From the IMG/VR virus record IMGVR_UViG_3300048997_000259, positions 1-46,414 of that record: a stretch of 46,414 bases of DNA. One strand, 5' to 3'. Under the pieces are notes generated by a model that saw only the letters and a program-made list of their open reading frames with translations, did no database searches and had not been told where the DNA came from. Position numbers and translations under genes: made by a program. Below are positions 381 through 46,342 of the stretch, one piece after another. Position 1 is the first letter of the stretch. Each line of letters begins with the position of its first letter. The DNA comes from a virus.

Positions 381-671
381 TCAATCGCATGAGCCGGAAT
401 CATCGTGGCACTTGCAGCCTTGCGGAAACAATCGATTGGCTTCTTCTTCGTAAAAATGTTGCATGGTCGCCGCCCTTTCGGTTTTGTGAACGTGCTTCGC
501 TTCGTGCTCCGTCGCGCACTCCCGGCACAGAAATCGGCCGCACTCGCTGCATTCCGCGATGTGAGATGAGCACAGTGGTGTTTCGCATTCGGCACAACTG
601 GTGATGGCCGGGTGCGGACACATGGTAGTTGCGTTGCGGGCGTGAATCCAGCTTTCGGTTGAGCAGGCCAT
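381..671 (-). CDS. Small Cys/His-rich zinc-binding protein
   Basis: 96-aa protein with dense metal ligands: CPHP, CAEC, CSSH, CSEC, CREC and an HEAKHVH stretch near residue 55, resembling a B-box-like double zinc site. The start ATG overlaps the stop of the YqaJ exonuclease gene (TAATG), so it is translationally coupled inside the leftward recombination operon. The function is not recognised. The zinc pattern suggests nucleic-acid or protein binding. Similar Cys-rich small proteins are scattered through the right-hand early region (for example 43220-43390). Confidence 0.75.
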   Translation of the reverse strand: MACSTESWIHARNATTMCPHPAITSCAECETPLCSSHIAECSECGRFLCRECATEHEAKHVHKTERAATMQHFYEEEANRLFPQGCKCHDDSGSCD

Positions 672-1324
672 TAGAACTCCAATCCGCCCGGTTCGGGCAT
701 TGAAAGTTTGTCCACGGTTCCATCCACTTCTTCGAGAAATTCCTCGATCTTGCGCTCGATCTCGCCGATGATGGCGTCATTGCGAAAGAGACGCCGGATG
801 AAAAGCTGCAGGTGTTCTGGTAAGCGCGGATCGTAACTGACGAAGTCACACCACGCGCGTCCGGTGCAGGCCATTTGCGCGAACATCTGCGAGGCGTATT
901 CGGCGGGTAAAGATTGCCCGAGCAGATAGCCGATGTGGGTTGCGGTGTTTGGGCATTTGAATTCGACCAGGCCGTCTTCTCCGACCAGTCCGTCCGGCGA
1001 AGCGCCGAAGCGGGGAATGTGAGAGTGGATGGCGAAGCCGGTCGTGTCTACAGTTGTGTCGCACTTCAGCTCGTAGGTTGCGCGGGCGAAGGGCTCCTGG
1101 TCGGTTCCCCAGAGCATTTCCGGTGATACGTATTGTGGAACCGGAACGCGCGTGAGGGTTTCGATCACCAGCTCCATGCGGTAGTTGCGCCGTGAGGCTG
1201 ATTCGCCCTTTTTGATTTCAGCGAGGATATCGGCGATCCGTGAGGCGGTGACTTTACCGCAGCGCAGCGCCGCCCACTCTTCAGTTCTTTGTTCGCAGTT
1301 GATGAGAATTCCGGGGGCGCTCAT
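671..1324 (-). CDS. YqaJ-like phage exonuclease (lambda exonuclease fold)
   Basis: 217 aa, the usual length for YqaJ/lambda-Exo type recombinases. The N-terminal RTEEW (residues 13-17) and KVTASRI are typical of the family. Metal-site residues fit the PD-(D/E)xK plan: E77 in DQEPFAR, D111 in ASPDGLV, then E121-F-K123. Such enzymes resect dsDNA ends 5'-3' and work with an annealing protein. Here the gene just upstream (1321-2079) overlaps it by ATGA and is the natural partner. Family assignment is firm; partner assignment is inferred from position. Confidence 0.9.
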   Translation of the reverse strand: MSAPGILINCEQRTEEWAALRCGKVTASRIADILAEIKKGESASRRNYRMELVIETLTRVPVPQYVSPEMLWGTDQEPFARATYELKCDTTVDTTGFAIHSHIPRFGASPDGLVGEDGLVEFKCPNTATHIGYLLGQSLPAEYASQMFAQMACTGRAWCDFVSYDPRLPEHLQLFIRRLFRNDAIIGEIERKIEEFLEEVDGTVDKLSMPEPGGLEF

Positions 1325-5994: not shown

Positions 5995-7404
5995 GTGCAA
6001 TCTCTCGCAGAAAAGTTTCGCGCCTTGCCGGAAGACGAGCGCAAGCGCCGTATCGAGAAACTCTCGGAGGCGGAAGCCGATGCTCTCTTGCATGACTGGG
6101 ACTTCTGGGCGCGTCCCGCGCAGCTCGAACCGCCAGAATTCGCGAGGGGCGAGAAAACAAACTGGCTGGTCAAAGCAGGTCGCGGATTCGGCAAGACCCG
6201 CGTGGGCGCCGAGCAAGTCCGCAAGTGGGCGAAGGATTTTCCAATCGTGAACCTGGTCGGTCCAACCGTGGCTGACGTGCGCGACGTGATGGTGCGCGGC
6301 ATCGGCGCTAATTCTTCCATTATGGAAATCTGCCGACGCGACGAGCGCCCGGAGTATGAGCCTTCGAAGCGCCGGCTCACCTGGCCGAATGGTGCGGTTT
6401 CGCTTTTATTCACTGCCGAAGATCCTGAATCGTTGCGCGGTCCGCAGCACATGAAGGTGTGGGGCGACGAGCTGGCGGCGTGGAAGTATCCCGATGCGAC
6501 CATGGAGCAGATTGAATTCGGCTTGCGGTTGGGGTCATCGCCTCAGGGTGTGTACACCACGACGCCCAAGAATACGAAATTGGTTCGCCGCCTGGTGGAC
6601 GATCCAAATACGATCGTGACTTCCGGCTCGACCTACGACAACAAAGCAAATCTCGCGCCGAAGTTTTTCTCCACTGTCGTAAATAGACACGAAGGAACGC
6701 GGATGGGCCGGCAGGAGTTGATGGGGGAACTTCTGACCGACAATCCGGGCGCATTGTGGACGCTGACCGCGATTGACCTCGACCGTATCGGCTTTCTTCC
6801 CGCTGGTCTCACCCGCATCGTCGTCGGCGTCGATCCTGCAGTGACCTCAAATGAAGAATCGTGCGAGACCGGAATCGTAATCGCCGCGATGGGTCTAAGT
6901 CCAGAAGGCAAAGACGACATCCCGCACTTCTATGTGATCGACGATTTGTCGTTGCTGGGTTCTCCCGACGAATGGGCGCAAAAAGTTGTTGTCGCCTACG
7001 CTGAGCAGAAGGCCGATCGCATAATCGCTGAAGTCAATAACGGCGGCGACCTGGTCGAAGCCATCTTGCGCACCAAACGGCTGGAGTTCGCTTACCAGGC
7101 TGTGCATGCAACAAGAGGCAAGATTCGGCGTGCTGAGCCGATCTCCGCTCTTTACGAGCAGCACCGGGTTCATCATGTCGGAGCATTCCCGCAGCTTGAA
7201 GACCAGATGTGCGATTACGTTCCGGGCAAAACCAAGCAATCGCCGGACCGCATGGACGCGCTGGTGTGGGCTCTCTGGGCATTATCCGAGCCGGAAGAGG
7301 TTTCTGACATTGTGACCCACGAAGAGCCGGTGCAGATCGCGCCTGACCTGGATGAAATTTTAGAAGACGCCAGCAATAACAATCCCACTTGGGGAATGTT
7401 CTAA
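5995..7404 (+). CDS. terL: Terminase large subunit (packaging ATPase/nuclease)
   Basis: 469 aa from GTG 5995. The ATPase has Walker A GRGFGKT (residues 62-68) and Walker B MKVWGDE (about 152-158), followed by YTTTPK, the usual coupling motif. The RNase-H-like nuclease begins with GVDPAV (about residue 279) and continues with IIAEVNNGGD and SPDRMDALVWAL, which supply acidic residues. It powers DNA translocation into proheads and cuts concatemers. Length and motif order are normal for the family. A portal gene follows 3 bases later. Confidence 0.95.
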   Translation: MQSLAEKFRALPEDERKRRIEKLSEAEADALLHDWDFWARPAQLEPPEFARGEKTNWLVKAGRGFGKTRVGAEQVRKWAKDFPIVNLVGPTVADVRDVMVRGIGANSSIMEICRRDERPEYEPSKRRLTWPNGAVSLLFTAEDPESLRGPQHMKVWGDELAAWKYPDATMEQIEFGLRLGSSPQGVYTTTPKNTKLVRRLVDDPNTIVTSGSTYDNKANLAPKFFSTVVNRHEGTRMGRQELMGELLTDNPGALWTLTAIDLDRIGFLPAGLTRIVVGVDPAVTSNEESCETGIVIAAMGLSPEGKDDIPHFYVIDDLSLLGSPDEWAQKVVVAYAEQKADRIIAEVNNGGDLVEAILRTKRLEFAYQAVHATRGKIRRAEPISALYEQHRVHHVGAFPQLEDQMCDYVPGKTKQSPDRMDALVWALWALSEPEEVSDIVTHEEPVQIAPDLDEILEDASNNNPTWGMF

Positions 7405-38149: not shown

Positions 38150-38460
38150 GCCAAGCACAACACACGCCCGAACCTTGGAATTTTATCGCGGAAGTTGGTC
38201 GGATCGAGGACAGCAAGGGTGACACTATCGCATTTATTTCTGGACGTGCGCGACTTTTCGGAACCGATCGCTGGACTGAAGCTTTTGCCAATGGCTGCCT
38301 GATCGCAGTCGCACCGGAGCTGCTCAAAGCACTGGAAAGAATTATGGATTCCGATCCCATTCGGCACATTCTCGGGTTGAATCATCGTTACCAGAAGGAT
38401 TGCAACTGCCCGAAATGTGAGATTGAAGCTGTGATCGAAAAGAGCAGGAGCCTTGCATGA
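38146..38460 (+). CDS. Conserved small phage protein (HTPEPW type)
   Basis: 104 aa from GTG 38146. The start QAQHTPEPWNFIAEVGRIED and the AFANGCLIAVAPELLKALE centre match a small protein found in very many phages, function unknown. The C-terminus adds CNCPKCEIE, a zinc-like cluster. Coupled to both neighbours. Confidence 0.75.
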   Translation: MSQAQHTPEPWNFIAEVGRIEDSKGDTIAFISGRARLFGTDRWTEAFANGCLIAVAPELLKALERIMDSDPIRHILGLNHRYQKDCNCPKCEIEAVIEKSRSLA

Positions 38461-38633
38461 GTCTGCGCTTCCCACCTCTACCCGCAGTGAACTCGCGCTG
38501 CACTCTGTGCGGCGGATCGGGCTGGCGCTACGTGGCCAAGAATCGCGTGACCAGGTGCCAGTGCCGAAAAGGGAAGGATCGACCGGACTTGTCGATCGTG
38601 GATCACAAATCGAACGCGGCGGGTGAGCGATGA
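38457..38633 (+). CDS. Small C4 zinc-finger protein
   Basis: 58 aa. CTLCGGSGW followed by CQCRKGK gives a DnaJ-like CxxCxGxG...CxC finger between residues 15 and 38. The C-terminus is polar. ATGA overlaps on both sides. Small finger proteins of this kind often accompany phage replication genes; role unknown. Confidence 0.6.
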   Translation: MSLRFPPLPAVNSRCTLCGGSGWRYVAKNRVTRCQCRKGKDRPDLSIVDHKSNAAGER

Positions 38634-38836
38634 ACAAAGGCGATCACGTTCGGATCACAGCAACCAAGCCAGACGGTACGCCACATCCGCATGCAGGTAA
38701 GACCGGCATCATTGCCGAGGTGTTCTCTTTTGCGCCGCGAATCACGGTGCTGTTGGATCGAGGGCAAGAGCTTGGCGGAACCTACGCAGTCGTATCCAGT
38801 TCATGTGTCGAACAATTGGCGGCGGGTGAGCGATGA
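38630..38836 (+). CDS. SH3-like small protein
   Basis: 68 aa: MNKGDHVRITATKPDGTPHP, then GKTGIIAEVFSFAPRITVLL and GGTYAVVSSSCVEQL. This reads as a five-strand KOW/SH3-like barrel, a fold used in nucleic-acid or protein contacts. Coupled to both neighbours. Function unknown. Confidence 0.65.
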   Translation: MNKGDHVRITATKPDGTPHPHAGKTGIIAEVFSFAPRITVLLDRGQELGGTYAVVSSSCVEQLAAGER

Positions 38837-39036
38837 AACCTTTCGAACTCATTGCCGAAATCTGCAAACCTGCGAACTTGCCGGCCAATTTTCGCAGACC
38901 AGTGGAGTTGGCCCGCGTGTTTCGCGTTCTCGCTGGGCGTTTGCCGGAATCGAGAACGCTCGACGGTCGCCGAGTGCTCGACCAGTCCGACTTTACTCAC
39001 TGGCTGCGCGAGTTGGCAGAAGAGGCGGAAAAGTAG
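38833..39036 (+). CDS. Small helical protein before HerA-like ATPase
   Basis: 67 aa, MKPFELIAEICKPANLPANF, then RVFRVLAGRLPESRTLDGRR. Helical, with no motif. The ATPase ATG follows the TAG stop directly, so it may be a partner of the ATPase. Not recognised. Confidence 0.6.
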   Translation: MKPFELIAEICKPANLPANFRRPVELARVFRVLAGRLPESRTLDGRRVLDQSDFTHWLRELAEEAEK

Positions 39037-40785
39037 ATGACAAAACTTCCGTTTCCAGAGCGCGTGCTGCATCAGCACATCGCCACGCTGGGCAAGACCG
39101 GCGCCGGAAAATCTTCCGCCATGCGCGTCATTGCCGAGCACCTACTCGACAAGAATCGGCGGGTCGCCATCATCGATCCGAAAGGCGACTGGTGGGGCTT
39201 GAAATCTTCTGCCGACGGCAAGAGCGCCGGTTATCCGGTCATCACCTTTGGCAATTTCAAAGAGGAACGCGCGACTGATGTTCCGATCAATGAGCAATCA
39301 GGCAAGCACGTTGCCGAATTGATTGCCACCGGGAATCGTCCGTGCGTCCTCGGATTTCGCGGCTGGATGCCTGGGCAGCTCACGCGCTTCTGGCTTGATT
39401 TCGCGCCGACTCTTTTCAACGCCAACGAAGGCGAACTGTACGTCATCATCGACGAGGTTCACAACTTCGCGCCCAAGGGCAAGATCATGGACCCGCAAGC
39501 AGGGAAGTGCTTGCACTGGACCAATCGCATCATGAGCGAAGGCCGCGGGCTGGGCCTGACGTTCTTCATTGCTTCGCAGCGCCCGCAGAAGGTCCACAAC
39601 GACACGCTGGACAATTGCGAAACCCTGATCGCGATGCGAGTCACCCATCCGCGATCGCGCGACGCCGCCGAAGAATGGATCAACGCGAAAGGCGATCCCA
39701 AGTTCGAGAAGGAAGTTCTCGGCTCGCTCGCGCAACTGAAACGCGGTGAGGCTTGGGTGTGGTCACCGGAAAACGGATTCGGTCCGGAGCGCGTGCAGTT
39801 CCCGATGTTTCAGACCTTCGATTCTTTCGCGCCGCCGCAAGTTCAAAAGAAAGTCAGTCAGGCGGGCTGGGCGGAAGTGGATCTAGACCAGGTCAAACAG
39901 AAACTTGCGACCGTGATCGCAGAGGCAAAGGCGAATGACCCGAAAGAGCTGAAGGCAGAAGTCTTCCGACTGAGGCAGGAGCTGGCCAAGAAGCCGGCGT
40001 CGGTCACATCGGCGCCGATTGTTCAGGAGAAAGAAAAGATCGTCGAAGTGTCGGTGTTCACCGACAACGACAAGCAATCTCTCGCTGCACTGCAAAGAGA
40101 GTTGTCGGAGATTACGGGCCTCGCCCATGATGTTGCTTCAGTCCAGGCCATCATTCAAAGGGCGATTGACACAGTTGCAAAGCAGCGATTCCTTACTGCG
40201 CCCCCGCGATTCACAAAGCCGATTCCAGCGCCGCAGAATATACGCCACCAGCCAGGGCGAGTTGAATCACACGTCGAATCGAACGGTGACCTCTCTCGCC
40301 CGCAACTCAAGTTGATCGAAGCCCTGGGCGAAGCGGAAGCCATTGGACGCAAAGAAATCTCGCGCTCCTGGCTGGCCTTCATCGCTGGCGTTTCGCCGCT
40401 ATCGTCCGGCTTTGAAAAAAACGTGAGCACTTTAAGTGCGAAGGGAATGCTGCGTTATCCCGCGTCCGGTTGCGTTGCGCTCACTGACGTTGGCCGCACA
40501 CTCGTGCCGCCGATCTCGACGCCGCTGACTACCGAGTCATTGCTCGATCGCGTGTGTCGCTTGTTATCCGGGCCGCAAGAAACATTGCTGCGCGTTCTGC
40601 ATCGTGAATACCCGAACTCTTTGACCAGGTCGGAACTCGCGCGCCACGCCAATGTGAGCGAGTTATCGAGCGGATTCGAAAAGAACGTCTCGACGCTTTC
40701 CGGTCGCGAGCTGGTGGAGTATCCCGGAAAGGGTGAAGTAGTTTGCGCCGATTGGTTGTTCATCGGTGACGAGGTGGCTGCATGA
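39037..40785 (+). CDS. HerA/FtsK-like DNA translocase ATPase
   Basis: 582 aa. Walker A GKTGAGKSS (residues 19-27), a DPKGDWWG signature, Walker B VIIDEVHNF (about 134-142) and the sensor region FIASQRPQKVHND (about 175-187) mark a HerA-type (VirB4/FtsK superfamily) hexameric ATPase. The C-terminal third has two winged-helix-like repeats, each with the phrase SSGFEKNVSTLS (near 455 and 545). Such ATPases move dsDNA. Its presence before a methyltransferase and a Rep gene suggests a role in replication or segregation rather than packaging. Coupled to the next gene. Confidence 0.85.
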   Translation: MTKLPFPERVLHQHIATLGKTGAGKSSAMRVIAEHLLDKNRRVAIIDPKGDWWGLKSSADGKSAGYPVITFGNFKEERATDVPINEQSGKHVAELIATGNRPCVLGFRGWMPGQLTRFWLDFAPTLFNANEGELYVIIDEVHNFAPKGKIMDPQAGKCLHWTNRIMSEGRGLGLTFFIASQRPQKVHNDTLDNCETLIAMRVTHPRSRDAAEEWINAKGDPKFEKEVLGSLAQLKRGEAWVWSPENGFGPERVQFPMFQTFDSFAPPQVQKKVSQAGWAEVDLDQVKQKLATVIAEAKANDPKELKAEVFRLRQELAKKPASVTSAPIVQEKEKIVEVSVFTDNDKQSLAALQRELSEITGLAHDVASVQAIIQRAIDTVAKQRFLTAPPRFTKPIPAPQNIRHQPGRVESHVESNGDLSRPQLKLIEALGEAEAIGRKEISRSWLAFIAGVSPLSSGFEKNVSTLSAKGMLRYPASGCVALTDVGRTLVPPISTPLTTESLLDRVCRLLSGPQETLLRVLHREYPNSLTRSELARHANVSELSSGFEKNVSTLSGRELVEYPGKGEVVCADWLFIGDEVAA

Positions 40786-41933
40786 CCTGTGGAATGTGCG
40801 GCGCTCCCATCTCGCTCACCCGTCGCCTCTGCGGTCTGTGTCTTAACCGGGCGCATCTCGCCGGCTGCCCCTCGCCGAGTAGCGAATGCAGTTGCGGATT
40901 CTCCGAGTTGTTCTGGGCGGACGTGGAAGCTTGCTATCTGGCGATGCCGCTCTGCATCGAGCTTTACGCCGGATTGCACGGCTGGGGAGAAGGCTTTGCC
41001 ACCGAAGGTTATAGGTGTGTGGGATTCGACATCGTGGACATGTGCGCCCTGCTCGGACATCGTCGGTCGGCGAGTTGCCAGCTGGTTTTGCAGGACGTGC
41101 TCACCCTGCACGGTTCGCAGTTCAAAGATGCGGCGGTGATCGTGGCTTCGCCACCGTGCCAGGAATATTCGTATCGGGCGATGCCCTGGTCGCGCGCCAG
41201 GTCCTTACCGCCGCCAGACAATTCTCTTTTCGAAGCCTGCTTCCGGATTCAGCGTGAAGCATGCGAAGCTGCCGGCCGATTCATTCCGCTGATCGTTGAA
41301 AACGTCAGAGGCGCGCAGAAGTGGGTTGGCAAAGCCAAGTGGCATTTCGGCTCGTACTACTTGTGGGGAGATGTTCCCGCGCTGATGCCGATTGCTCAAT
41401 CGCGCAAGATCGCCGGCCAGAACTGGAAAGATTTTCGCCGCACCGGAGAAATCTCTCCGCACTGGCGAATGAAGGCGTTTCAATCGCTGCCCAACGATGG
41501 CGGTTACAAGTGTGCGCAGTTAATAAAGTTCGACGACGGCGCGTCCCATACCAGGCACCTCACCAATCCGGCTGAGCACGTGCGCATCGAGTACGCGGGA
41601 GTCAAGTTGGCATCGCCAGGGCACTACCGCAAATCCGGCAGCGGACCTGATTGGTTCGATGGCGGCGGGGCTGCCAGTGGATCGAACTCCCTGAAGCGCA
41701 AAGCCGCATCCGCGATGCTGGCGAAGATCCCGTTTCCTCTCGCGCAGCACATTGCGCGGGTCTTTCACCCCAGCAGCTTCGGGGTTGATCTTGATCTTGG
41801 TTTTGCTTTTGGCGCTCGCCCTCCCGAAATTCGCCGGATCACGGACGATTCCGGGCGAGACGGAGGGACACCGGCTTATCCCCAGGCAGGCGATAGCGGT
41901 GCGCTCCCCTCAGGGGCGGGGGGGTGGTCTTGA
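40782..41933 (+). CDS. C5-cytosine DNA methyltransferase with N-terminal zinc ribbon
   Basis: 383 aa. N-terminal ribbon CGMCGAP...CGLC (residues 3-20). The methylase core follows: motif I ELYAGLHGWGEGF (about 59), FDIVDM for the SAM-acidic site, motif IV ASPPCQEYS with the catalytic cysteine (about 124), and motif VI IVENVRG (about 173). The target-recognition part is short and non-standard. It starts within the ATPase stop (ATGA), so it is made with HerA. Likely DNA protection or modification; whether it targets phage or host is unknown. No restriction enzyme is adjacent. Confidence 0.8.
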   Translation: MTCGMCGAPISLTRRLCGLCLNRAHLAGCPSPSSECSCGFSELFWADVEACYLAMPLCIELYAGLHGWGEGFATEGYRCVGFDIVDMCALLGHRRSASCQLVLQDVLTLHGSQFKDAAVIVASPPCQEYSYRAMPWSRARSLPPPDNSLFEACFRIQREACEAAGRFIPLIVENVRGAQKWVGKAKWHFGSYYLWGDVPALMPIAQSRKIAGQNWKDFRRTGEISPHWRMKAFQSLPNDGGYKCAQLIKFDDGASHTRHLTNPAEHVRIEYAGVKLASPGHYRKSGSGPDWFDGGGAASGSNSLKRKAASAMLAKIPFPLAQHIARVFHPSSFGVDLDLGFAFGARPPEIRRITDDSGRDGGTPAYPQAGDSGALPSGAGGWS

Positions 41934-41980
41934 CTTTACGTTCGGCAGTTGAAGGCTCTGGCGGTCGAGATCGGACGATA

Positions 41981-42016
41981 GCAGAGTGCGGGGCTTTTTA
42001 GCGCCCCGCACTCTGC
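41981..42016 (+). terminator. Perfect 14-bp hairpin between methylase and Rep genes
   Basis: GCAGAGTGCGGGGC (41981-41994) and GCCCCGCACTCTGC (42003-42016) enclose TTTTTAGC; GGTTTT follows. It may terminate the upstream operon. Because it sits about 110 bases before a rolling-circle Rep gene it could equally be a structural part of an origin. Confidence 0.7.
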
Positions 42017-42128
42017 GGTTTTAAGCGAAGCACGGCGGGTCTTTGCGGGTTCGCACGTGCCTCGCTTGAGGTGTGTCTTGTCGATTGTACTCGGGGTTTT
42101 GGGGTTGCTTTTGATTTTGAGGTCTTTA

Positions 42129-42135
42129 CTTGATA
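42129..42135 (+). other. Candidate rolling-circle nick site CTTGATA
   Basis: CTTGATA is the conserved nick core of pC194/pUB110-type double-strand origins, cut after CTTG in those plasmids. Here it overlaps the TTG start of the Rep gene, in the context CTTTACTTGATACC. Seven bases is a weak signal, but the matching Rep family and the nearby hairpin add weight. Confidence 0.4.
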
Positions 42136-43209
42136 CCAGTGCATAAATCGACAGATTTCAACTCGGCATCGTCGTCCTCCGCTCAACCATTTTTGAATAA
42201 GGCGGTTTCACTTCTAGATCGTTACGTCTTGCAGGGGAAATTAGTGGAAGCTCTTGAAAACACGGAGTACCACAAGCATTTGGCGGTGAAGGTTTACAAC
42301 TGCCACAAACGCTTTCGAAAGAAGCGTTGCGACCAGAATCACGACTGGGCTGTGGTTGACGAGAAAAACAAGCCTTGCTCGCTGCGAATTTGCCCGCACT
42401 GTGCATCTCGTCGTTCGCGAATTGTGGCGGCGCGGACGCAGAAGCTTCTTTTTGGGAAAACTGGTTTGCGTTATGCCGTGTTGGCGGAGCGCAATTCGGA
42501 AAATTTGCAAGCGGGTGTGCGCTCGCTATGGAGAGCCTGGACAAGTCTTCGTCGTTCGGTGTGCTGGAAGGCGAAGGTGAAGGGATGCATTGTGGCGCTA
42601 GAGGTCACCTATAACCCGAAGCGAAAGACTTGGCATCCCCATTTGAACGTGCTGATGGAGGGGGAATATTTTCCGTTTGAGGAGTTGAACAAGGCGTGGA
42701 TTAAGGCGACAGAGGGGAACGGGCGGACCAGCCGGATTCAAGCTGCAGACCATGAAACCGTTTTCGAGTTGCTGAAGTACACGCTGAAAGTGGCCGCGCG
42801 CGACAAAGACACCGGGGAATTTGAGTTGATCTTCGATGAGCCGGAAGCTATTGACGAATTTTTGTCAGCCGTCCATGGGAGCCGCCTGGTGCGGAGTTAT
42901 GGCACCTTGCACGGTTTAAAACTCGAAGATGAAGACGAGGAAAAAGCCCGCGAAAAATGCCCGGATTGTGGTTCGACTTGTGTGATCGATTTGGGCGGGG
43001 TGACCCACAATCAGCTGAGTTTCGATTTTGAAAAACAAACTTTCCGCGTGGTGCGTGCCCCTACGGAAGCCGATGTCGGCTTGCATCTCGTCCGAGATAA
43101 CCACTCGCGCCGGGTTTCAACTAATCCCGAATCGATTGCGTTGGCAGTGGAAGCGCGGCGCGCGATGAGGTCTTACGAAAAAGCGGTCGCACTGAAATTC
43201 GCAGCTTGA
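42130..43209 (+). CDS. Plasmid-type rolling-circle replication initiator (Rep_1-like HUH)
   Basis: 359 aa from TTG 42130 with a GAGG upstream. Near residue 81 is the Rep_1 zinc segment SLRICPHCASRRSR. The metal-binding HUH motif is WHPHLNVL (about 167-174). The catalytic tyrosine lies in LLKYTLKVA (about 213-221). A C-terminal CPDCGSTC (about 277) adds a second finger. The enzyme nicks one strand at a double-strand origin, staying 5'-linked. In a tailed phage it implies rolling-circle or sigma replication started by a plasmid-like initiator. Motifs are in standard order. Confidence 0.85.
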   Translation: MIPVHKSTDFNSASSSSAQPFLNKAVSLLDRYVLQGKLVEALENTEYHKHLAVKVYNCHKRFRKKRCDQNHDWAVVDEKNKPCSLRICPHCASRRSRIVAARTQKLLFGKTGLRYAVLAERNSENLQAGVRSLWRAWTSLRRSVCWKAKVKGCIVALEVTYNPKRKTWHPHLNVLMEGEYFPFEELNKAWIKATEGNGRTSRIQAADHETVFELLKYTLKVAARDKDTGEFELIFDEPEAIDEFLSAVHGSRLVRSYGTLHGLKLEDEDEEKAREKCPDCGSTCVIDLGGVTHNQLSFDFEKQTFRVVRAPTEADVGLHLVRDNHSRRVSTNPESIALAVEARRAMRSYEKAVALKFAA

Positions 43210-43219
43210 GGAGGTTACC

Positions 43220-43390
43220 GTGGTCAACGTTTGTCATCGCTGCGGAATAGATCTTTCGCTGGCTCACTGTGCAGCGTGCGGCGGCGGACCGTGTACACAC
43301 TTTTCGTGTGCTTGTTGTGGCGGGCATTACTGTCACGTATGCCTCGCAACTCACAATCGCGAGAATTGGTGCGAGAAAAAGGCGTCGTGA
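43220..43390 (+). CDS. Very Cys-rich small zinc-binding protein
   Basis: 56 aa from GTG 43220 with GAGGAGG at ideal spacing. Ten cysteines and five histidines (CHRCG, HCAACGGGPC, CACCGGHYCHVC, CLATHN) suggest two or more zinc sites, B-box-like. It lies right after Rep and may regulate it or bind partner proteins. No named family recognised. Confidence 0.65.
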   Translation: MVNVCHRCGIDLSLAHCAACGGGPCTHFSCACCGGHYCHVCLATHNRENWCEKKAS

Positions 43391-43399
43391 TTTCGAGTT

Positions 43400-43437
43400 T
43401 GCGGCCTAAAGCCGCATAAATAGCGGCAATTAGCCGC
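43400..43437 (+). promoter_or_regulatory. Tandem GCGGC/GCCGC palindromes before the 43456 gene
   Basis: TGCGGC-ctaaa-GCCGCA (43400-43416) and GCGGC-aatta-GCCGC (43423-43437) lie 22 bases apart, two helical turns. The middle GCCGC and GCGGC can also pair with each other, giving mutually exclusive stems. This could be a two-site operator or a translational switch just upstream of the start at 43456. Confidence 0.5.
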
Positions 43438-43455
43438 ACAAAAAGGAGAAGCAAA

Positions 43456-43815
43456 ATGGCAACAGCACCAGCAACACCCATCAGCAGCAAGCGGCCAGAG
43501 ATGGTCGAAGTGAAAGCACCGAAACAGGTCCAGTTCGAAAAGCAGGGTCAGACGCTAAACGGCGTACTGGTTTCGATCGAGCCCACAACCGTGAAAGACA
43601 AACAGGCGATCGAGTATCTGATCGTGGACGAGCGGGGAGATCGATCGACCTTTCTCGGCACGGCTGACCTCAACAAGAAAATTCATTCCGGCCACATTGG
43701 TCACATGCTCGAAATCCGCTATGAGACCAATGACAGCTCTTTCCAGAAAGAAGGACAGAGCGCGATGAAAATCTTCAAAGTCCTGGCCTCGAAGGAGAAG
43801 GTCGCTGGATTTTGA
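43456..43815 (+). CDS. Abundant small protein, possible ssDNA-binding OB-fold
   Basis: 119 aa with AAAAAGGAG upstream. After a flexible N-terminus the body is beta-rich with PKQVQFEKQGQTLNGVLVSI, YLIVDERGDRSTFLGTADL and HMLEIRYETNDSSFQKEG, which reads as a five-strand barrel. A basic/aromatic mix and location after Rep hint at a single-strand DNA-binding role, needed in rolling-circle replication. The fold and role are inference; the gene itself is clear. Confidence 0.65.
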   Translation: MATAPATPISSKRPEMVEVKAPKQVQFEKQGQTLNGVLVSIEPTTVKDKQAIEYLIVDERGDRSTFLGTADLNKKIHSGHIGHMLEIRYETNDSSFQKEGQSAMKIFKVLASKEKVAGF

Positions 43816-45573: not shown

Positions 45574-45798
45574 GTGAAAAAAGGCGCACGGAAGCCGGAC
45601 AGTAAGTGGGGCGCTGCTCTCGACATGGCGGCGGCTTTGAAGACCGGTCACGGTTTTTTGCTGGAAGGCGACAACCGCGTCGCTAATCGGTTTCGGTCGA
45701 TCTTGCGCGTGTCTAATCGAACCTCTCGATGGCGTTTCACTGTCAGGCAGACGAAAGGTAACTGGTACGCTGTAACTAAAATTGGCGAGTGGCGCTAG
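45574..45798 (+). CDS. Small basic protein, last gene of rightward early operon
   Basis: 74 aa from GTG 45574. Basic and beta-rich, with HGFLLEGDNRVANRFRSILR and RWRFTVRQTKGNWYAVTKIG, a small nucleic-acid-binding look. Its stop overlaps the stop of the convergent HNH gene (CTAG). Confidence 0.6.
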   Translation: MKKGARKPDSKWGAALDMAAALKTGHGFLLEGDNRVANRFRSILRVSNRTSRWRFTVRQTKGNWYAVTKIGEWR

Positions 45799-46139
45799 CC
45801 CTTTTCTACATTGCATACCCAGTGCGCTGCCCCGTTCCAATCCTGCCCGTCTTTTGTGATCCGGTCATCTCTGAACGCCGCGTGCATCCCGCGCCTTCGC
45901 TGGTGCTCAAAAGTGGCTTGCGAGAGCGCCAGCCGGCGATTGCAGAGGCAGCAGCGATGGTTCTGGCGCATGACCATGACCTCGACTCGCCGTTTGTATT
46001 CCCGCCAGCCTTGGGGCGTGTCGGTGCACACTTCCCGTCCATCCGGGTACACGCGGACCGCACCGTCGAGGATGACGGTATAGCGCATGGATTGCTCCGG
46101 GTAGGAATGGGAGTGCGGGATGGGACGGCGGCGAATCAT
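45795..46139 (-). CDS. HNH endonuclease
   Basis: 114 aa from ATG 46139, overlapping the endonuclease VII stop (ATGA). The core reads MRQNHRCCLCNRRLALS, then TFEHQRRRG and HWVCNVEKG: a CxxC zinc pair, a central EH in place of the usual HH/DH, and a final asparagine, the layout of compact HNH nucleases. The last gene of the leftward recombination operon. It may nick DNA during packaging or recombination. Confidence 0.75.
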   Translation of the reverse strand: MIRRRPIPHSHSYPEQSMRYTVILDGAVRVYPDGREVCTDTPQGWREYKRRVEVMVMRQNHRCCLCNRRLALSQATFEHQRRRGMHAAFRDDRITKDGQDWNGAAHWVCNVEKG

Positions 46140-46342
46140 GGCTTCTTCAGATAGGCGATAATCATTTGCGTATTTTGCTCGAACCAACCAAGATTGCTAT
46201 TGCAACTTCTGCACAGTAGGCCGCGGACGCACTTTCCACACGTTCTTCCGCTGGGCCGATTGCAACAGGCGTGATCGTGGTCTATTACGAGTTGTGTAGG
46301 TTTTTTGCAGATGGCGCACGCGCCGCCTTGTTGAATGACCAT
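46136..46342 (-). CDS. Endonuclease VII, C-terminal catalytic part (continues across junction)
   Basis: The C-terminal core of the gene begun at 1-295: CAICKKP, LVIDHDHACC, TCGKCVRGLLCRSCNSNLG and the final helices IIAYLKKP. The DHDH pair and the four-cysteine zinc site followed by VRGLLCxxCNxxLG are the endonuclease VII signature. Bases 46288-46342 repeat bases 1-55, so only 46136-46287 are new sequence here. Confidence 0.85.
   Translation of the reverse strand: MVIQQGGACAICKKPTQLVIDHDHACCNRPSGRTCGKCVRGLLCRSCNSNLGWFEQNTQMIIAYLKKP

Follow-up and report, generated by a model that had tools for sequence, protein, structure and literature searches.

We analyzed the IMG/VR virus record IMGVR_UViG_3300048997_000259 (positions 1 to 46,414) and call this whole stretch of 46,414 bases the window. 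Pfam and PHROG matches give it a terminase, an integrase and a probable portal gene, and the window is that of a tailed, integrase-bearing phage, a virus of bacteria. Our subject is a locus at which genes for a HerA-family ATPase (herA), a C5 cytosine DNA methylase and a rolling-circle initiator of the Rep_1 kind (rep) follow one another. A sequence-only reading had found these three genes side by side, the first two overlapping by ATGA and the third preceded by a hairpin, and had taken them for one replication block. Its description of the locus was correct: profile matches (PF01935, PF00145 and PF01446) place all three genes where it had put them, and both the 4-base overlap and the hairpin are present. 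The features, all on the plus strand, are as follows.

38457-38633, 38630-38836 and 38833-39036 (+): three small overlapping genes leading into herA, with ATGA overlaps; the last one stops one base short of herA
39037-40785 (+): HerA-family ATPase of 582 amino acids (aa) with C-terminal tandem winged helices (PF01935, E 9e-11)
40782-41933 (+): C5 cytosine DNA methylase (PF00145, PHROG 363)
41981-42016 (+): perfect stem-loop between methylase and rep, with a 14-base-pair (bp) stem and an 8-nucleotide (nt) loop
42021-42070 (+): second stem-loop, imperfect, ahead of the origin (-26.8 kcal/mol)
42113-42162 (+): double-strand origin (dso), with the nick motif CTTGATA at 42129-42135 and a 19-bp core at 42123-42141
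42139-43209 (+): Rep_1 (pC194-type) rolling-circle initiator (PF01446), probable start GTG 42139
43456-43815 (+): conserved 119-aa gene after rep, with relatives in other records that encode such a Rep

The gene run from 38457 is tightly packed through herA and ends with the methylase at 41933, and rep begins 205 bp beyond it, past the two stem-loops. We consider it probable that two separable modules adjoin here, a rolling-circle replicon (module A) and a set of small genes with a sequence-addressed HerA motor and a passenger methylase (module B).

The Rep_1 initiator and its double-strand origin

The product of rep matches PF01446 with an E value of 4e-14 and 53 bits, against a curated cut-off of 33.2. 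Tyr214, Glu142 and Glu210 have been described as the catalytic residues of pC194 RepA (PMC5703833). Counted from TTG 42130, residues E158, E213 and Y217 of Rep and the HPH histidines H169 and H171 are invariant in 10 phage Reps, and E213 and Y217 are spaced by four, like Glu210 and Tyr214 of pC194 RepA. Judged by its sequence, Rep is a pC194-type (Rep_1) rolling-circle initiator that keeps its catalytic residues. No relatives were found by a first peptide-pattern search or by tblastn in the phage collection. Searching the viral collection with the degenerate pattern WHPHLNV returned 11 stretches, nine with Rep relatives (38-60% identity) and two that matched by chance. Similarity to plasmids was weak (388 of 72,556 plasmid records at E ≤0.01, mostly from Gram-positive bacteria, none covering 80%). 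The closest relative is the Rep of L163 (G058), 64% identical to that of the window. There are 11 Rep records in all; ten were aligned for the origin and the catalytic residues, and the eleventh, L163, was read separately. Two records that are near relatives of each other, L138 and L155, were both retained.

All nine stretches with Rep relatives show conserved DNA where rep begins. When the ten records were aligned without gaps on ATACCAGTG, identity in 10-nt bins from -20 to +30 was 0.81, 0.94, 0.97, 0.93 and 0.76, and outside this region it was 0.44-0.58. The conserved block of about 45 bp (around 42113-42162) overlaps the rep start and contains, at 42129-42135, the sequence CTTGATA, described in PMC10378824 as the conserved dso nicking site of Rep_1 proteins. 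An independent scan of the viral collection with the 19-bp core TCTTTACTNGATACCAGTG recovered nine stretches, all ahead of a Rep relative; eight were known Rep loci, and the new one was L163, where Rep lies directly behind the block. The core is present in a single copy in the window, and none of 100 shuffles had any copy within three mismatches. These observations locate the origin at about 42113-42162, where Rep would nick; the exact cut is presumably CTTG/ATA, a position carried over from pC194.

A conserved block ahead of rep might instead be an operator or a translation signal, as it overlaps the rep start and has TTG or GTG starts inside it. We regard this as unlikely, since the block extends to either side of the start, its bases are retained even at positions where the codons would be free to vary, and it holds the published Rep_1 nick motif (PMC10378824). 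Because relatives have TAG (three of ten records) or TTC (one of ten) at the position of TTG 42130, this triplet appears to belong to the nick motif, and GTG 42139 is probably the start codon of rep.

Folding of the 227-nt stretch between methylase and Rep beat 200 of 200 shuffles (z -5.2). The stem-loop at 41981-42016 was not called in a strict terminator scan; it is likely the transcription terminator of the herA-methylase unit. The one at 42021-42070 exceeded the best local stem in each of 60 mononucleotide shuffles, for which a coarser scanning grid was used. Stems of like strength lie upstream of the origin block in seven of the nine other Rep records, and with the same coarser grid for shuffles the upstream stem-loop surpassed the best of 60 in eight of ten Rep records, L158 and L161 being the exceptions.

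The 119-aa gene at 43456-43815 has counterparts that make its position behind rep common to seven of ten Rep records, with 62-76% identity in the six others. Its product had no match in Pfam or PHROGs and no meaningful match in the PDB; as a guess, size and position would suit a single-strand binding protein. In our reading, the dso, rep and the 119-aa gene together serve a group of tailed phages as their replication module; the larger records of this group measure 38-46 kb. In L155 and L157, a gene upstream of rep ends in LADLAYLADLAYRADLAY repeats.

The HerA motor and its tandem winged helices

The domains of the HerA protein, as predicted, are these.

39037-39852 (+): HerA motor core, residues 1-272, with Walker A at residues 19-26 and without N-terminal barrel
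40291-40488 (+): winged helix 1, residues 419-484, recognition helix 457-468
40564-40752 (+): winged helix 2, residues 510-572, recognition helix 545-556, SSGFEKNVSTLS, the same as in winged helix 1

In an AlphaFold2 model of the protein (predicted local distance difference test score, pLDDT, 84.9), motor residues 1-272 are like HerA structures (Z 25 over 233-240 residues, root-mean-square deviation 2.4-3.1), and Z 16 to FtsK against Z 25 to HerA assigns the motor to the HerA branch. Across 28 proteins, residues K25, E140, Q181 and R182 do not vary, nor does the stretch IDPKGDWWG (46-54). HerA proper carries an N-terminal barrel domain ahead of the motor. The motor of the window protein begins at residue 1, model residue 1-2 aligning with residue 114-155 of the best HerA chains, and the protein scores 63.8 bits against the equivalog of HerA proper, NF040819, for which the curated cut-off is 970. 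Helices and a loose linker (pLDDT <50 in places) join the motor to the winged helices. Folded alone with 80 sequences, the C-terminus formed two packed winged helices (pLDDT 92.7, predicted template modelling score 0.85), MarR/ArsR-like by sequence and MarR/DtxR-like by fold (Z about 11); among 80 members, Pfam matched MarR_2 in 12 and HTH_Crp_2 in 11.

Relatives of HerA were found in 57 viral loci (63 stretches matched), 62 bacterial or archaeal loci (81 stretches), 47 of 72,556 plasmid records and one of 50,697 phage records. The gene belongs to a widespread phage and plasmid family in which a bare HerA motor is joined to two tandem winged helices. Among the neighbours of HerA (128 viral, 115 genome) no constant partner stood out; of the families listed, the most frequent were DUF5131 (5/128) and DnaB (3/128) in the viral set and N6_N4 methylases (4/115) in the genome set. 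These N6/N4 DNA methylases, the commonest neighbours in the bacterial genome loci L070-L119, are too few for an association. On the plasmid pCSL1 (L165), a cytosine methylase and a second FtsK-type gene lie a few genes upstream of HerA. We searched 50 records, namely the window, 47 of the 57 viral HerA loci, MW202482 and the record of L060, and rejected the idea that HerA replaces DnaB: DnaB_C occurs in 12 of them, though it is absent from the window.

Two other functions were weighed for this motor. The HerA models of PADLOC match the protein (E 2e-18, and 1e-18 for mad8) and the motor fold is the same, which would suit a defence effector like Sir2-HerA, DUF4297-HerA or HerA-NurA. We think this very unlikely, as the protein lacks the N-terminal barrel, scores 51.6 bits where 850 is the curated value for anti-phage HerA models, and has no nuclease, NADase or Sir2 among the first 25 neighbour families listed for each set of neighbours. 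To our knowledge, tandem readers are not part of these three systems. The best PHROG label, terminase large subunit (PHROG 2666, E 1.6e-19), and the likeness to B204, the packaging ATPase of STIV2 (Z 19), would fit a motor that packages DNA into the capsid. This has, if anything, an even slighter chance of being right: the window has its own terminase with both Terminase_6 domains at 5995-7404, and HerA relatives are also found on plasmids.

We compared the two winged helices within and between proteins. The 89 distinct HerA proteins include 85 with a clear repeat pair (L051, L075, L102 and L130, with best self-alignment scores ≤60, were excluded from the helix counts), and 81 were kept after filtering at <70% overall identity. 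In columns 113-119 and 121, which lie in the recognition helix, the repeats agree within a protein in 80-100% of cases and between proteins in 15-53%. Columns inside helix 1 and helix 2 mostly show no excess, and a lesser excess is seen at the start of helix 1, in a few single columns and in the wing. Over nine helix columns, mean identity within the 81 proteins was 0.885, compared with a mean of 0.275 and a maximum of 0.347 in 2000 random pairings. Relatedness does not explain this match, because in 75 of 81 proteins the first helix was closer to the second helix of its own chain than to that of the nearest motor relative (equal in three, worse in three). Motors of the window and L002 are 89% identical, and their helices share none of nine positions; L024 and L015 have motors 91% and helices 22% identical. 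The same pairing was present in all three proteins outside the set, those of the plasmids pCSL1 and pCBMA213_1 and of the Rep record G057 (L155).

Gene conversion between the repeats could produce matched helices that have nothing to do with specificity, and identical residues do share their codon slightly more often than the codon usage of the gene predicts (343 of 672 in helix columns, expected 300.8; 714 of 1553 in other columns, expected 664.5). We nonetheless judge this quite improbable: synonymous codons are close to random, and the match is confined to the recognition helix, the helix 1 start and the wing, with none in the intervening columns. The paired architecture is established statistically, and it suggests that HerA is a sequence-addressed DNA translocase whose winged helices would bind DNA. 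Readers change on an unchanged motor, so each element probably has an address of its own.

One block or two modules

The methylase lies just above the cut-off for PF00145 (E 1e-5, 25.7 bits, cut-off 22), and its translation contains PPCQ and ENV, which we take to be C5 cytosine methylase motifs. Its N-terminus (40848-40931) is similar to a small gene located ahead of rep in L163 (tblastx, 64% over 28 codons), and for this reason the methylase looks, from its sequence, like cargo grafted onto a small resident gene. While PF00145 matches 17 of the 50 records, the subfamily of the window's methylase recurs in a single further HerA locus, L007, at a distance of about 8 kb from the motor gene, and a methylase of this type adjoins HerA in none of the other loci.

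Several observations weigh against the reading of two modules, one of them with an addressed motor. The nick motif is exact in six of the ten aligned Rep records and in L163, but CTAGATA stands in its place in three and TTCATA in one (L133/G050), which makes it more variable than the flank ATACCAGTG. To delimit the repeats we used the best self-alignment of each protein, a procedure biased towards similarity within a protein; the contrast between columns would be hard to get from this bias, and 85 of 89 proteins passed. Some gene conversion in the past would be compatible with the slight excess of shared codons, and the neighbours of HerA do not indicate a single task. The main weakness is that a target site for HerA was not found in four different searches. 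Nothing convincing emerged from clusters of repeated 9-mers, from over-represented 8- and 10-mers, from gapped direct or inverted 6-mer pairs common to loci with the same helix, or from 7-10-mers and 5-mer pairs across six loci with SSG[YF].NNLG-like helices; in the six-locus search, two of the top-ranking common 10-mers are coding sequence for NNLG. Nor did a search of the HerA loci turn up another protein with the recognition helix of the local HerA; the highest score, 33, went to a 104-residue segment that nothing else supported. Finally, an FtsK/VirB4-like ATPase lies upstream of rep in L161 (9563-11125 on the minus strand, 520 aa, AAA_10 at E 5.5e-4, below the cut-off, and distinct from HerA), with a piece of one in L156. 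Some ATPase of the FtsK-HerA superfamily is upstream of Rep in four of ten Rep records examined, and the Rep group may have some taste for such a motor near rep.

These upstream ATPases would also fit one replication block, in which HerA would act as helicase or as segregation motor when Rep drives replication, and the methylase would mark the product. The three genes do adjoin in the window, and a divergent HerA with matched helices is upstream of Rep in G057 as well. The distribution of the genes speaks otherwise: PF01446 matches one of the 50 records, namely the window, and HerA (profile A2) was found in one of the nine other Rep records and not in L163, thus in two of 11 with the window. 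The closest Rep relative, G058, has no HerA by profile and no relative of the methylase in the 5 kb before rep. The sequence-only reading had named the absence of the trio from other genomes as a ground for giving up the block; in these collections the three genes never co-occur elsewhere, and on that ground the block is refuted. We give a single block little chance, because Rep has its own origin, a gap of 205 bp with hairpins in front of it and its own conserved partner gene. A relative of the small gene at 38833-39036 occurs in four other Rep records, at different positions.

Repeats around herA were also noted. An 11-mer, CGGGTGAGCGA, has three exact copies round herA; it was picked after the fact and rejected, as 4 of 100 shuffles equalled it when one mismatch was allowed. 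An exact 19-nt repeat (38616-38634 and 38819-38837) lies at two successive stop/start junctions before herA, and its 11-nt core recurs inverted at 40812-40822, at the methylase start; the repeat may be either a site for HerA or a translation signal that was duplicated.

Elsewhere in the window, the gene at 671-1324 (minus strand) encodes a YqaJ-type recombinase nuclease (PF09588, E 3e-29) and adjoins a gene for 252 aa at 1321-2079 without a Pfam match. Two small cysteine/histidine-rich proteins at 45795-46187 and 46136-46342 (both on the minus strand) look by eye like HNH or endonuclease VII enzymes; the former has relatives in L158, L159 and L162 and no Pfam match at 0.01.

Proposed mechanism and comparison with known systems

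We propose that a tailed phage carries, in module A (42113-43815), a pC194-like rolling-circle replicon. Rep would recognize the dso and nick it at about 42133 in CTTGATA, the 3' end would prime strand-displacement synthesis, and the product would probably be packaged as concatemers. In module B (38457-41933), made up of the small genes, the HerA motor (a bare ATPase of the hexamer type) and the methylase, both winged helices would read the same half-site. The motor may load at a site in the phage's own DNA that holds two copies of this half-site and pump double-stranded DNA away from it. Its task could be to segregate, resolve or handle DNA that has been replicated; segregation or processing of such DNA would fit the presence of HerA on phages and large plasmids. 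The methylase, judging from its family, would be a passenger that modifies cytosines of the phage DNA.

With the pC194/pUB110 plasmids, module A shares the Rep family, the catalytic Glu/Glu/Tyr, HPH and a CTTGATA in the dso at the front of rep. It differs from them in that its Rep is encoded in a 46-kb tailed-phage record with terminase, portal and integrase, its dso overlaps the rep start, its flank ATACCAGTG...TCGACAGAT is highly conserved, and a 119-aa gene lies behind rep.

FtsK/TraB-type translocases have a membrane anchor, and in TraB and FtsK/SpoIIIE the motor is followed by a C-terminal winged helix. The order of motor and winged helix is repeated in the predicted structure of the window HerA, which, like these proteins, has a double-stranded DNA motor of the FtsK-HerA type. 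Unlike them, its motor is of the HerA branch, each chain has two winged helices with matched recognition helices, and nothing precedes the motor. According to PMC4170104, hexameric TraB of Streptomyces conjugative plasmids reads 8-bp TraB recognition sequence (TRS) repeats at clt; by analogy, the HerA address would probably be like these TRS repeats, peculiar to each element. HerA of archaea and of defence systems has the same ATPase core and fold, but the window protein lacks the N-terminal barrel, carries a C-terminal coiled coil and tandem winged helices, and has no nuclease partner that we could see. The 'hera helicase' of MW202482 (Podoviridae sp. ct4oC223) has the same architecture and matched helices (30% identity over 98%); it differs in its neighbours, and its record has no Rep_1 match.

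Titles and the openings of abstracts in a mainly open literature contained no description of a phage Rep_1 dso or of a matched-reader HerA. Rep with its dso is a known kind of replicon in an unusual place, and HerA would be a new form of sequence-addressed DNA motor. With the dso, whose position follows from its conservation in 11 records, plasmid-type rolling-circle replication in tailed phages has an exact origin that can be put to the test.

More tentatively, and with somewhat less than even confidence, we suggest that the HerA family consists of addressed motors with a readable code, in which two copies of one exchangeable reader are swapped together on a motor that is retained, so that each element moves only its own DNA. 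If this is true, they would make up a new class, intermediate between FtsK/TraB and HerA. The family is a natural experiment in DNA recognition, with dozens of proteins, one motor and many readers, each present twice, and the residues that determine specificity could be read from the HerA alignment. Finding the target site would reveal the role of motors that are labelled only DUF87 or HerA-like in phages and large plasmids.

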